NCBI GenBank assembly: GCA_016185125.1
Contig: JACPOC010000017.1
Coordinates: 1 to 64,000 of the forward strand
From: Bacteroidota bacterium
Lineage (GTDB): Bacteria > Bacteroidota > Bacteroidia > B-17B0 > Aurantibacillaceae
Length of the DNA stretch: 64,000 bases
Direction of reading: 5' to 3'
Positions 5,011 through 14,013 of the stretch are shown piece by piece (the stretch's first letter is position 1; each line of letters starts with the position of its first letter). The translations under genes and the position numbers were made by a program. Under the pieces are notes generated by a model, which saw nothing but the letters and a program-made list of their open reading frames with translations, was not told the origin of the DNA and ran no database searches.

Positions 5011-5415
5011 TTAAAACTTAAAGAAAAAGAAAACAACCGCCGCCCATTCTTTTTTTACTCCGCTGGCATGGCCAATTGTGGAGTGAGAAGAGTTCTCTAC
5101 CGTTCCATTATCTTTTACATATCCCATGGTTGAATGCGATGAATTTTCAATTGTTCCATCACTTTTTACATAACCCACAGTGCTGTGGCTGCTGTTTTCA
5201 ATAGTACCGTTACTTTTAATATATCCAATGGTGGAGTGTGATGAATTCTCAATAGTGCCATCGCTTTTAATGTAACCTTTAGTAGAATGACTACTGTTTT
5301 CAATAGTTCCGTCGGGTTTTACATAACCTGTGGTTGAGTGACTTCCGGATTCAATAGTTTGTGCTTTTACTCCAAAGACCAGACTTAAAAATGCGATTGC
5401 GATTAATTTTTTCAT
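5011..5415 (-). CDS. Secreted tandem-repeat protein (beta-flower-like)
   Basis: A 134-residue protein. A signal peptide (MKKLIAIAFLSLVFGVKAQ) is followed by about six copies of a 16-residue unit, SSHSTxGYxKSDGTIEN, then a short hydrophobic C-terminus GVKKEWAAVVFFFFKF. The units correspond to 48-bp DNA repeats (see the repeat feature). From memory this matches the small Bacteroidota family described as 5-fold beta-flower proteins, where the repeats form a radial beta structure; that name is a recollection, not a search result. Function is unknown. The Phe-rich end may anchor or pack against membrane. It is convergent with dnaB and divergent from aspartate kinase. Confidence 0.7.
   Translation of the reverse strand: MKKLIAIAFLSLVFGVKAQTIESGSHSTTGYVKPDGTIENSSHSTKGYIKSDGTIENSSHSTIGYIKSNGTIENSSHSTVGYVKSDGTIENSSHSTMGYVKDNGTVENSSHSTIGHASGVKKEWAAVVFFFFKF
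5085..5365 (-). repeat. 48-bp tandem coding repeats
   Basis: About five and a half imperfect 48-bp units inside the repeat-protein gene. The variable positions fall mostly at residues x in HSTxGYxK and at S/N exchanges, and the reading frame is kept throughout. Confidence 0.8.
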
Positions 5416-10048: not shown

Positions 10049-10954
10049 ATGCTATTTATAATTTTAGGTCTTTTAATGTTAGGAGTTTCTTACTTTGTAA
10101 TTAGAGTTAACTACAAATTAAACCGCTTCTATAAACTAACTAATATTTTTGGAATTGTAATAATACTTTTAGGAATTTCGACCACCATTGTAAAACAAGT
10201 AGAGGCCGGACAAGCCGGAGTACAAACTCTTTTTGGGAAAGTGGACGACCATATATTGGAAAGCGGCTTAACCCTTATTAATCCGCTGGTAGAAGTAACT
10301 ATGTTTGATATTAAAACACAAAACTACACCATGTCCGGGGTGCATGATGAGGGTGATAAAAACGGTGATGATGCAATAAGGGTTTTATCAGCCGATGGAC
10401 TTGAAGTAATTATTGATCTAACGGTTTTGTACCGTGTAATACCTACTCAAGCGCCCCGGATATTAAAAGAGATTGGTACAGACTATAAAAATATTATTGT
10501 AAGGCCCATTACGCGCACAAAAATTAGGGATAACGCCGTTTATTACGATGCCGTTGCATTGTACTCTACTAAAAGAGATGAATTTCAATCAAGAATATTT
10601 AAAGGCATTGAAAAAGATTTTAAAGACAGAGGCCTTGTGTTGGAACAATTATTGGTAAGAAATATAACCTTGCCGCAATCGGTAAAAATAACCATTGAAT
10701 CAAAAATTAATGCCGAGCAGGACGCGCAAAAAATGCAATTTGTATTACAAAAAGAAAAACAGGAAGCCGAGAGAAAACGTGTGGAGGCGCAGGGTATAGC
10801 CGATTACCAAAAAATTATTAATACTGGTTTAAGCGATCAGCAATTACAATACGAAATGATTAAGGCTAATAAAGAAATTGCAACTTCACCCAATACCAAA
10901 ATAATTATAATTGGTAATGGCAAAAGTGTTCCATTAATTATAAACGATAAATAA
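10049..10954 (+). CDS. SPFH/Band 7 (prohibitin-like) membrane protein
   Basis: A 301-residue protein with one or two N-terminal hydrophobic segments (about residues 2-16 and 31-47). A prohibitin-type Band 7 domain follows (VEAGQAGVQTLFGKVDDHIL onward), then a charged helical coiled-coil (EKQEAERKRVEAQGIADYQK, about 236-255). Such proteins form membrane-bound ring oligomers that organise proteases or membrane domains. No FtsH or NfeD partner is adjacent. A weak box TACATTTA (10014-10021) precedes the gene. Confidence 0.85.
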   Translation: MLFIILGLLMLGVSYFVIRVNYKLNRFYKLTNIFGIVIILLGISTTIVKQVEAGQAGVQTLFGKVDDHILESGLTLINPLVEVTMFDIKTQNYTMSGVHDEGDKNGDDAIRVLSADGLEVIIDLTVLYRVIPTQAPRILKEIGTDYKNIIVRPITRTKIRDNAVYYDAVALYSTKRDEFQSRIFKGIEKDFKDRGLVLEQLLVRNITLPQSVKITIESKINAEQDAQKMQFVLQKEKQEAERKRVEAQGIADYQKIINTGLSDQQLQYEMIKANKEIATSPNTKIIIIGNGKSVPLIINDK

Positions 10955-11289: not shown

Positions 11290-12462
11290 TTAGCGTTTCT
11301 GTTTAGCTTTTACCACCGGTTTTTTTCCTGCTTTCTTTGTGGGTAATTTTTTAATTGCTTTTTTAGAAGATACTTTTTTTACGGGTTTCTTTACTAGTTT
11401 TTTTACTGCTTTTTTAGATGCCGCTTTTTTAATAATCTTCTTTCGCGCCACCTTTTTTATTTGTTTTTTTTGAGCAGCTTTTTTAACCGCTTTCTTCGCA
11501 CCTTTTTTTGGAGCTGCTTTCTTTGTAGTTTTCTTTGCAGATTTTGCATCAGTTTTTTTAAGAGATGCTTTTTTCTTTAACATAGATGCCTTGGGCTTTT
11601 CCTTTTGCTTGTCAGCACCTGATGTTGCCTTAGCTTTGCCTTTAACGCTTCCCTTAACATTAGCGTGTGCCTGATTAAATGCCGCTTTATTGCTTTTTAC
11701 CAATCGTTTAGCCACTCTTTTCTCTTCTTTTGCATCTTCTTCTTCTTCGGCTTCGGCGCGTTTTATAGCATCTATTTCCAAAAGCAATTCCGGCGCAATA
11801 TCATCGGCCACTTCAAAATCCTGTATGGTAAGGTCTAAGTGCTCAATATCGCTTTCCAGGGCGGTAAGATCCATTTCGGCTTTTAAAAATACAATGCGCT
11901 CGGTTAATAGTTTAAAGATCTCTTCAATAGTTCCAATTCCCTGAATGGAATGAAATTTACCCTGCTCGCTGTAATAATTTTTTAACGGAAGCGTTTTGTT
12001 ATTGTATTCATTGATCCTTTTCATGATCACCTCTTTATTGGCGTCATCCGGACGGCCGCTTGCCAAGCCGCGTTTTAACAAGCGTTCGGTTAATTCCTCA
12101 TCACTTACTTCCAGTGCAAGCATGGCGCTTATGCCTGTTCCTTTTTTCTGCAAAACATCATCTAACGCAACAGCCTGAGCGATAGTGCGCGGAAACCCGT
12201 CAAAAATAAAACCTTTGGCGTTGGGGTTAGCGTCCAGCTTACTTTCAATCATTGCAATTACAATAGCATCGCTAACCAGTTCGCCGCGGTCCATTACCTC
12301 TTTTGCCTTGCGGCCAAGGTCGGTTCCTTTAGCAATTTCGCTGCGCAAAATATCGCCGGTACTTAAGTGTACGAGGCCGTATTTATTAATTAAATTTTCA
12401 GATTGTGTGCCCTTGCCTGCGCCGGGGGGACCAAATAACACCAGGTTTAACATTCTTTCCAT
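11290..12462 (-). CDS. adk: Adenylate kinase with a long lysine/alanine-rich C-terminal tail
   Basis: Interconverts AMP + ATP and 2 ADP. The P-loop LFGPPGAGKGTQSENL is at about residues 8-23, the AMP-binding region LSTGDILRSE follows, then FDGFPRTIAQA near 87 and the LID-region GLASGRPDD near 131. The enzyme core ends near residue 195, the usual family length. About 195 further residues follow: an acidic linker (AEAEEEEDAKEEKR), then a strongly basic stretch made of KK, KAxKK and KKxxKK repeats that resembles histone H1 or Hc1-like nucleoid proteins. The reading frame is continuous. Start could be 12462 or 12453 (MLNLVLFGPPG). It lies 12 nt after hpt and is probably co-transcribed with it. 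Confidence 0.93.
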   Translation of the reverse strand: MERMLNLVLFGPPGAGKGTQSENLINKYGLVHLSTGDILRSEIAKGTDLGRKAKEVMDRGELVSDAIVIAMIESKLDANPNAKGFIFDGFPRTIAQAVALDDVLQKKGTGISAMLALEVSDEELTERLLKRGLASGRPDDANKEVIMKRINEYNNKTLPLKNYYSEQGKFHSIQGIGTIEEIFKLLTERIVFLKAEMDLTALESDIEHLDLTIQDFEVADDIAPELLLEIDAIKRAEAEEEEDAKEEKRVAKRLVKSNKAAFNQAHANVKGSVKGKAKATSGADKQKEKPKASMLKKKASLKKTDAKSAKKTTKKAAPKKGAKKAVKKAAQKKQIKKVARKKIIKKAASKKAVKKLVKKPVKKVSSKKAIKKLPTKKAGKKPVVKAKQKR

Positions 12463-12474
12463 TTTGTTTTTTTA

Positions 12475-13011
12475 TTAAGCTAATACGTAAATCTCTTTTA
12501 AATTTCTTCCCATGCCATCGTAATCTAAACCATAGCCAACCACAAAATCATTGCCAATTTCGAGGCCTGCATAGTCTATGTTATATTCTTTTTTGTAAGA
12601 AGCCGGCTTTAAAAGAGCGGTGGCCACTTTTATCTGCTTTACATTTTTTCGTTTTAGAACGGTAAATAATTTTTCGAGAGTAATACCGGTATCTACAATA
12701 TCTTCTATAATTACAACAGTGCGATCCGTTATATCTTCCGTTAATCCAATAAGTTCGCTAACCGCGCCGCTGCTGGATGTTCCGTGATAACTGGCCACTT
12801 TTATAAATGAAATTTCGCAGGGTATGTTTACTTCTTTTAAAAGATCGGAAGCAAACATAAATGAGCCGTTTAAAACTACCAGAAATACCGGTTGTTCGTG
12901 TTCAAGATCAGTATTTATTTTATCGGCCAGCCTTTTTACCGCGTTGCTAATTTGCTCTGCGGTAATAAATGGTTTAAACTGTTTATCCTTTATGGTTATA
13001 AGCTTATTCAC
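12475..13011 (-). CDS. hpt: Hypoxanthine phosphoribosyltransferase
   Basis: Purine salvage: hypoxanthine or guanine + PRPP to IMP or GMP. The PRPP-binding motif VVIIEDIVDTGITLEKL is clear, and FLVVLNGSFMFASDLL matches the second loop. The GTG at 13011 is chosen: it gives 178 residues, the normal family length, and an exact -7 box lies 7 nt upstream. The frame is open to an ATG at 13086, but that would overlap the divergent tsaC gene and its promoter. It pairs with adk downstream as a nucleotide-metabolism unit. Confidence 0.9.
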   Translation of the reverse strand: MNKLITIKDKQFKPFITAEQISNAVKRLADKINTDLEHEQPVFLVVLNGSFMFASDLLKEVNIPCEISFIKVASYHGTSSSGAVSELIGLTEDITDRTVVIIEDIVDTGITLEKLFTVLKRKNVKQIKVATALLKPASYKKEYNIDYAGLEIGNDFVVGYGLDYDGMGRNLKEIYVLA

Positions 13012-13018
13012 GTGGAAA

Positions 13019-13026
13019 CAAATATA
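13019..13026 (-). promoter_or_regulatory. -7 box for hpt-adk
   Basis: TATATTTG on the minus strand, exact consensus, 7 nt before the GTG start at 13011. Confidence 0.5.
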
Positions 13027-13044
13027 TGCTTTTTCCTTAATTAG

Positions 13045-13052
13045 TATATTTG
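13045..13052 (+). promoter_or_regulatory. -7 box for tsaC
   Basis: TATATTTG, exact consensus, ending 4 nt before ATG 13057. It is divergent from the hpt box only 18 bp away, so the two promoters must share upstream DNA. Confidence 0.5.
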
Positions 13053-13056
13053 CATA

Positions 13057-14013
13057 ATGGCTCAAACCGGAAAAAATATTTCGCATGCCGCTGAACTCTT
13101 ATTAGAGGGTAAGCTGGTTGCTATTCCCACCGAAACGGTGTATGGTTTAGCGGCCAATGCATTAAACGAGCAAGCAGTACTTTCAGTTTTTGAAGCAAAA
13201 CAGCGTCCTTTTTTCGATCCTTTAATCATTCACGTTCCGGATATGGAAAGTATATGTAAGTACGCCGAATTAAAGGACGAACGGTTGTTGAAGCTTGCCC
13301 GCAGTTTTTGGCCGGGACCTTTAACACTGCTTCTTCCCAGGAATGAGAGTATTCCTGGGATAGTAACATCGGGGTTGGATAACGTTGCTGTGCGAATTCC
13401 TGATCATCCACTTACGCTGGAGTTGCTGAAAAAGGTTGGCGTTCCTCTGGCGGCCCCAAGCGCTAATCCTTTTGGGTATGTGAGCCCAACAACAGCAGCG
13501 CATGTAAATGATCAGCTGGGGAGTAAAATAGATTATATTTTAGACGGAGGAGAGTGTAAAGTGGGATTAGAATCTACTATTGTTGGGGTAGAGGAGGGCA
13601 GAGTGTGCGTGTACCGTTTAGGCGGATTATCGGTAGAAGATATGGAAGTTCAGATAGGAACCGTAGAATTACGGATCAATAATTCCGGTGATCCAAAGGC
13701 ACCGGGTCAATTGAAAAGTCATTATGCGCCAATTAAGCCTTTATTTTTAGGCGATTTAGAGAAGTTATTAAAGCTGAAGGATAATAAGAAATTAGCGATT
13801 ATTTGCTTTGGAAAACTTAATTTCAAATCAGATATGAATACGGTTTATAATTTATCTGAGAAAGCTTCATTACAGGAAGCGGCCATTAACTTGTTTAAAT
13901 TTTTGCGTTTAGCAGATTTGAGTGGTGCTGAGGAAGTGATTGCGCAACTTTTGCCGGATGAAGGTTTAGGAAGAGCCATAAATGACCGTTTAAAAAGAGC
14001 CGCTTGTAAATAA
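13057..14013 (+). CDS. tsaC: L-threonylcarbamoyladenylate synthase (YrdC/Sua5 type)
   Basis: Makes threonylcarbamoyl-AMP from threonine, bicarbonate and ATP for the tRNA t6A37 modification. The YrdC domain has PTETVYGLAANAL (about residues 22-34), KQRPFFDPLIIHV, and PLAAPSANPFGYVSPT. At 318 residues it is the longer Sua5 form, with the linker APGQLKSHYAPIKPL and a C-terminal Sua5 domain. It is monocistronic and convergent with the secreted PHP protein, 12 bp away. Confidence 0.92.
   Translation: MAQTGKNISHAAELLLEGKLVAIPTETVYGLAANALNEQAVLSVFEAKQRPFFDPLIIHVPDMESICKYAELKDERLLKLARSFWPGPLTLLLPRNESIPGIVTSGLDNVAVRIPDHPLTLELLKKVGVPLAAPSANPFGYVSPTTAAHVNDQLGSKIDYILDGGECKVGLESTIVGVEEGRVCVYRLGGLSVEDMEVQIGTVELRINNSGDPKAPGQLKSHYAPIKPLFLGDLEKLLKLKDNKKLAIICFGKLNFKSDMNTVYNLSEKASLQEAAINLFKFLRLADLSGAEEVIAQLLPDEGLGRAINDRLKRAACK

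Follow-up and report, generated by a model that had tools for sequence, protein, structure and literature searches.

Adenylate kinase (Adk) is described in textbooks as a freely diffusing enzyme, and the locus described here raises the question of why such an enzyme should be continued by a long, highly charged C-terminal extension. The gene lies in a window of 64,000 nucleotides, i.e., the whole stretch of DNA that was analyzed, from a member of the Bacteroidota. It is a single uninterrupted frame of 390 amino acids, which occupies positions 11290-12462 on the minus strand. The initial annotation had regarded this frame as a fusion of Adk with a long extension, and this proved correct: the core ends at about residue 190 and is followed by about 200 residues in one frame. 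The true start may be Met4, because a methionine is found at this position in 51 of 54 relatives. The parts of the gene are compiled in Table 1.

Table 1. Coordinates of the adk gene parts and of the upstream neighbor within the window.
Feature	Position	Strand	Basis
Adenylate kinase core, residues 1-190	11893..12462	(-)	Pfam ADK 4.1e-52; NF001381; PDB sequence matches; Adk fold
Likely start Met4 of Adk	12453	(-)	Met in relatives
Acidic helical stalk, residues 191-240	11743..11892	(-)	dN/dS, invariant residues, AF2 helices
Mixed-charge, E/K-rich end of second predicted helix, residues 241-262	11677..11742	(-)	AF2, net charge
Histone-H1-like Lys/Ala tail with predicted disorder, residues 263-390	11293..11676	(-)	Composition, pLDDT, kept extension
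hpt-like phosphoribosyltransferase gene	12475..13086	(-)	Pfam Pribosyltran 1.4e-29; directly upstream of adk; conserved neighbor

Residues 9-168 match the Pfam model ADK (PF00406) with 176.8 bits (4.1e-52; cut-off 26.8) and residues 5-187 match NF001381 with 233.5 bits (cut-off 187). The core also matches Adk sequences in the PDB, and residues 3-195 of the predicted model show the Adk fold when compared with 1dvr_A (VIA-align Z 23.9, rmsd 2.3, 189 aligned residues). Within 55 aligned sequences the P-loop GPPGAGKGT and many other core residues are invariant, including R40, R92, R127, R131, R137, and R149, which we take to be the catalytic arginines of Adk. The window's own genome (G000, 3.34 Mb in 59 contigs) contains one match to the protein at E <= 0.001, which is its sole Adk match. 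Judged from its sequence, the catalytic core of the tailed Adk is an intact short-type adenylate kinase.

The extension was present in frame on 54 of the 56 Adk loci read from the window's order, which is represented by a single family (f1) in this genome collection. A frame error or an assembly fusion can be rejected on the basis of these 54 loci. The search for the same tail in Adk homologs was thus successful, and the opposite arrangement, in which relatives would have one gene for Adk and another for the basic protein, is contradicted by the same loci. The set comprised 100 related genomes, 95 of them with an Adk match, and 90 loci were read; five matched loci were left out, one of the same genus that is a fragment at a contig end (G038) and four of other families (G077, G081, G085, and G099). 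Two genomes of genus g2 (G055, G060) had no Adk match among these 100. In one of the 54 loci (L024) the contig stops within the extension, and another contig of the same genome (L149) carries a nearly matching continuation. The two same-order loci lacking the extension (L089, L090) belong to genus g2 and encode a divergent Adk. Their Adk stands on a very long branch and was possibly replaced by transfer.

Among further genomes of the order, 22 of 26 contained Adk frames of 313-438 amino acids, a count that refers to frame lengths and not to tails read. One genome (G117) showed a short Adk frame of 168 amino acids, and two (G102, G107) gave no Adk match. No match to the Adk core at E <= 0.001 was obtained in G103, a 98% complete genome of the same order; a KA-rich DksA/TraR-like frame (L147) was the only hit there, which may be due to a gap in the assembly or to a strongly deviating Adk.

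In a quick tree of 108 cores, calculated without bootstrap and without the incomplete L007 and L024, the 52 tailed f1 Adks form one clade (SH-aLRT 99), with 48 of 105 inner branches open. The tail label changes nine times on the best tree, and the starred branches force at least three changes. The linker between core and tail differs by genus: the main stalk form is found in g1, g3, g5, g6, and g8, a second conserved form (DNKT...DGxxTVADIS) in g4, g7, and g9, and still other linkers in g10, one of them rich in His and Asp. The Adk of L061 (G054) has a His/Asp/Glu-rich linker ahead of its lysine-rich tail, which perhaps binds metal.

The segment following the core had been described as an acidic linker. 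Its acidity was verified, as residues 191-240 have a net charge of -13 (residues 241-262: +2), but it is not a loose linker: it is conserved, predicted to be helical, and represents the best-conserved stretch of the extension. Fourteen residues are invariant in the 55 aligned proteins (F192, A195, E196, L199, T200, L202, E203, D205, E207, H208, L209, D210, T212, and D215). The hydrophobic positions 192-195-199-202-206-209-213-216 are spaced in a heptad-like manner, a contrast that was reached by 34 of 20000 shuffles in a test that was run once the pattern had been noticed. AlphaFold2 (AF2), supplied with the 55 sequences, predicted helices at 179-217 and 224-262 with block pLDDT values of 58-87 over residues 191-240 and 58-88 as far as residue 250; the second helix reaches residue 262 at a block pLDDT of 78, followed by 59 and 45. 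Since the overall model has a mean pLDDT of 70.1 and a pTM of 0.50, its placement of the stalk on the core is unreliable. No convincing relative of the stalk was found in the PDB by sequence profile (best E 0.65), and the fold comparison hardly reached past residue 195 of the model.

For the comparison of selection, dN/dS was computed for the 40 pairs of highest similarity without L007 and L012, and 20 of them were printed; the individual values are rough because dS exceeds 1 in many pairs. In the printed pairs dN/dS is 0.00-0.08 for the stalk vs. 0.00-0.06 for the core, and the stalk is thus constrained by purifying selection to about the same degree as the enzyme core. Purifying selection also rules out a shadow ORF. 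The invariant polar residues E196, T200, E203, D205, E207, H208, D210, T212, and D215 exceed the needs of a plain coiled coil and point to a specific partner or a specific packing.

A search of named genomes with the alignment of residues 179-240 yielded 56 loci, and each of them has the stalk in frame behind an Adk core. All of these loci are MAG records, and all but one bear Bacteroidota-type names; as the named genomes largely repeat those of the relatives' set, this count is not independent of the 54 loci above. The scan relied on one motif, and relatedness was confirmed for all but 22 of its 78 pattern matches. With this one motif, the stalk was not found outside Adk in the named genomes.

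The likeness of the tail to histone H1, which the initial annotation had noted, is real with respect to composition and is conserved in relatives. Residues 263-390 have a net charge of +50 and comprise 51 Lys, two Arg, 22 Ala, and no aromatic residue, and disorder is predicted, with AF2 block pLDDT values of 41-48. A Pfam scan up to E 1 returned kinase and AAA families and one weak composition-type match (BSP_II); it returned no histone or Hc1 model, matches of a kind that the filters and bias correction of HMMER suppress. The likeness to histone H1 is one of composition. Lysine pairs recur every four or five residues in 713 of 1021 printed spacings from 55 tails. In a sample of 458 kb of the own genome (20 genome stretches plus the window), in which 375 non-overlapping ORFs of at least 100 amino acids were listed mechanically, the tailed Adk has the highest lysine density over 60 residues; six ORFs including this one reach 30% Lys or more, at a mean maximum of 15%.

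In all 55 tails counted, the part beyond the 50th residue has a net charge of +32 to +76, with lysine making up 96% of the basic residues; the 53 complete f1 tails among them are all strongly cationic. The tail drifts and varies in length among relatives, and lysine positions persist through AAA/AAG changes. Its dN/dS is 0.09-0.27 in 16 of the 20 printed pairs and 0.71 in one, with three not computable, values that are rough owing to low-complexity alignment and saturated dS. As they lie above those of the core, mainly the bulk charge seems to be constrained. Recent expansion of a DNA repeat is not supported: Tandem Repeats Finder detected one array of 43 bases in the tail (period 12 bases, 81% matches) and two short overlapping rows further up, and the codons are mixed over the 200-residue extension (Lys: AAA 43, AAG 15; Ala: GCT 9, GCC 5, GCA 13, GCG 6).

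Lysine-rich tails on Adk are not confined to the window's order. They occur with unrelated linkers in five other families of Bacteroidia (f6, f11, f21, f38, and f44). Two of the 34 other-family loci in the relatives' set carry such a tail (L059, L066); the Adk of L078 (G067) has a C-terminal extension of 328 residues without lysine enrichment, which has the appearance of a different domain. A wider search matched 281 of 295 genomes, and among the matches listed 20 longer frames were read, ten with lysine-rich tails and ten without; several listed frames of 220-235 amino acids were left out. Family f21 is patchy, as four of its nine listed Adks have frames above 300 amino acids and five have 193-200. 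The polycation thus recurs across families with differing linkers, and the linker is lineage-specific. The tail may have been gained repeatedly, or gained and then lost in some lineages. Long Adks are at least catalogued, given the existence of the model NF010381 (PRK13808), which with 335 positions is longer than a normal Adk, and which presumably derives from Alphaproteobacteria and has a K/A-rich end. The window's protein matches it from residue 6 to 374, i.e., into the tail, and scores 182.7-186.3 bits, far below the cut-off of 426.

Similar segments are found on other proteins of the own genome. Topoisomerase I (TopA, L163) and ribosomal protein Thx (L165) have a Lys/Ala-rich segment at the C-terminus, a SWIB-domain protein (L167) has one at the N-terminus, and a free KA-rich ORF of 41 residues is also encoded (L164). 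Small separate KA-rich ORFs exist in relatives as well (L153-L156, L158-L160). The initial annotation had also considered that proteolysis might free a DNA-binding protein from the tailed Adk, an idea that gained no support from these data. By contrast, the nucleoside diphosphate kinase (NDK) and guanylate kinase frames, with 149 and 209 amino acids, are of ordinary length. A KA-rich segment also precedes a HemD-like enzyme (L192, identified by Pfam), and since this is a metabolic enzyme, the occurrence of such segments is not restricted to nucleic-acid proteins. In relatives, KA-rich N-terminal segments occur on L147 and L148, which by eye are DksA/TraR-like and HemD-like, respectively. The tail of Adk is one instance of a polycation module in this lineage, which is mostly but not only attached to nucleic-acid proteins.

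Several published systems can be compared with the tailed Adk. The C-termini of AlgP (net charge +55) and PhaF (+35) are lysine-rich and homologous; a C-terminal fragment of AlgP binds DNA, and for PhaF, which possesses an oligomerization domain, a role in tethering granules to the nucleoid has been proposed (PMC9239181). The tailed Adk resembles both in its C-terminal domain, which is Lys/Ala-rich, disordered, and comparable in length and charge, and its stalk, if read as an oligomerization segment, would have its counterpart in PhaF (PMC9239181). However, neither PhaF nor AlgP has an adenylate kinase as its N-terminal part, both repeat KPAA whereas the tailed Adk mostly has KK every four to five residues, and the Pfam scan up to E 1 gave no phasin-type match in the tailed Adk. 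Lysine-rich low-complexity regions are reported to be enriched among DNA-binding proteins (PMC6821194). The lysine-rich tail of mycobacterial TopA likewise sits on an enzyme and takes part in DNA relaxation and an electrostatic protein contact, but it measures about 20 residues and belongs to a DNA enzyme (PMC9760754). C-terminal targeting of an Adk is already documented for human AK2A, which is recruited to AIFM1 through its last seven residues; there, however, the residues supply a protein partner with an additional beta strand and do not form a polycation (PMC7617965). No description of an Adk with such a stalk and tail was found among the titles and opening lines of abstracts in the open-access literature.

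The tether to nucleic acid or polyphosphate proposed in the initial annotation would fit these observations. By analogy with PhaF and AlgP, the tailed Adk may be a tethered enzyme, in which the stalk would act as oligomerizer or spacer and the tail as a polyanion clamp; we consider the chances for and against this reading to be balanced, with oligomerization, binding, localization, and benefit all inferred. The last helix of the core would continue into the conserved acidic stalk, which probably forms oligomers or a hairpin or serves as a docking site for a partner. From there the Lys/Ala tail, predicted to be disordered, would bind polyanions irrespective of sequence; DNA of the nucleoid and ribosomal RNA would be the likeliest targets, with polyphosphate in second place. 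Adk would thereby be concentrated where enzymes of nucleic-acid metabolism and translation use ATP and release AMP and ADP. In favor of the tether we counted the order-wide conservation, the selection on the stalk, the retained charge of the tail, and its recurrence in five families, as well as the segments on TopA, Thx, and the SWIB protein next to the ordinary NDK and guanylate kinase. Against it we counted the segment of the HemD-like enzyme, the untailed Adk of g2, the higher dN/dS of the tail, and the surplus of invariant polar residues in the stalk.

Alternatively, the tail might anchor Adk to polyphosphate granules and couple polyphosphate to AMP/ADP/ATP metabolism. This is suggested by AlgP, which has a similar tail and associates with such granules (PMC9239181), and by the polyphosphate kinase gene (PPK1) in the own genome. 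PPK1 was found in all 14 genomes tried, with tailed and untailed Adk alike, so that no association with the tail emerges and its presence does not help in choosing between nucleic acid and polyphosphate; we regard a polyphosphate anchor as unlikely.

The gene neighborhood bears on a further alternative. The hpt gene is located directly upstream of adk on the same strand in 55 of the 56 named loci; the remaining one is presumably L096, the contig of which starts inside adk. In three loci of family f34 (L182, L183, L184) Adk is preceded within one frame by a phosphoribosyltransferase that by eye looks like the Hpt of the window, and this fusion joins two genes that adjoin in the window. Downstream, the window has a Band 7/SPFH gene (10049-10954) convergent to adk, and farther away on the minus strand (5011-5415) a probable secreted protein of 134 amino acids with repeats like IENSSHSTxGYxKSDGT. 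In at least 40 of the 56 named loci adk is followed by an ORF with a glycine motif of the Obg type, which by this motif is presumably obgE. The stalk could be the functional part and dock a single defined partner, with ribosome assembly as a possible setting given the frequent obgE-like gene, and with the lysine-rich tail being a weakly selected, expandable low-complexity region. The stalk's dN/dS, equal to that of the core and below that of the tail, would fit this idea, but the strong positive charge of every complete f1 tail and the occurrence of such tails in other families without the main stalk make it improbable. Equally improbable is an electrostatic self-regulation, in which the acidic stalk would pair with the basic tail within or between molecules and cause autoinhibition, oligomers, or condensates responsive to nucleotides, RNA, or salt: the charges are strongly segregated and the acidic stalk residues conserved, but -13 and +50 are far out of balance, and the tailed Adks L171 and L185 of other families are almost devoid of an acidic segment.

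Returning to the tethered enzyme, a broader interpretation can be offered tentatively, although we think it somewhat more likely to fail than to hold. In most of one Bacteroidota order and in several other families, the central Adk would be oligomeric and bound to the nucleoid or the ribosome, and an H1-like domain grafted onto a housekeeping kinase would organize adenylate metabolism spatially. If Adk were held on a polyanion in most of the order, this would represent a direct and testable case of spatially organized energy metabolism in bacteria. It would also exemplify how metabolic enzymes repeatedly acquire H1-like tails, and would offer a polycation tag of natural origin on an enzyme that has been studied well.
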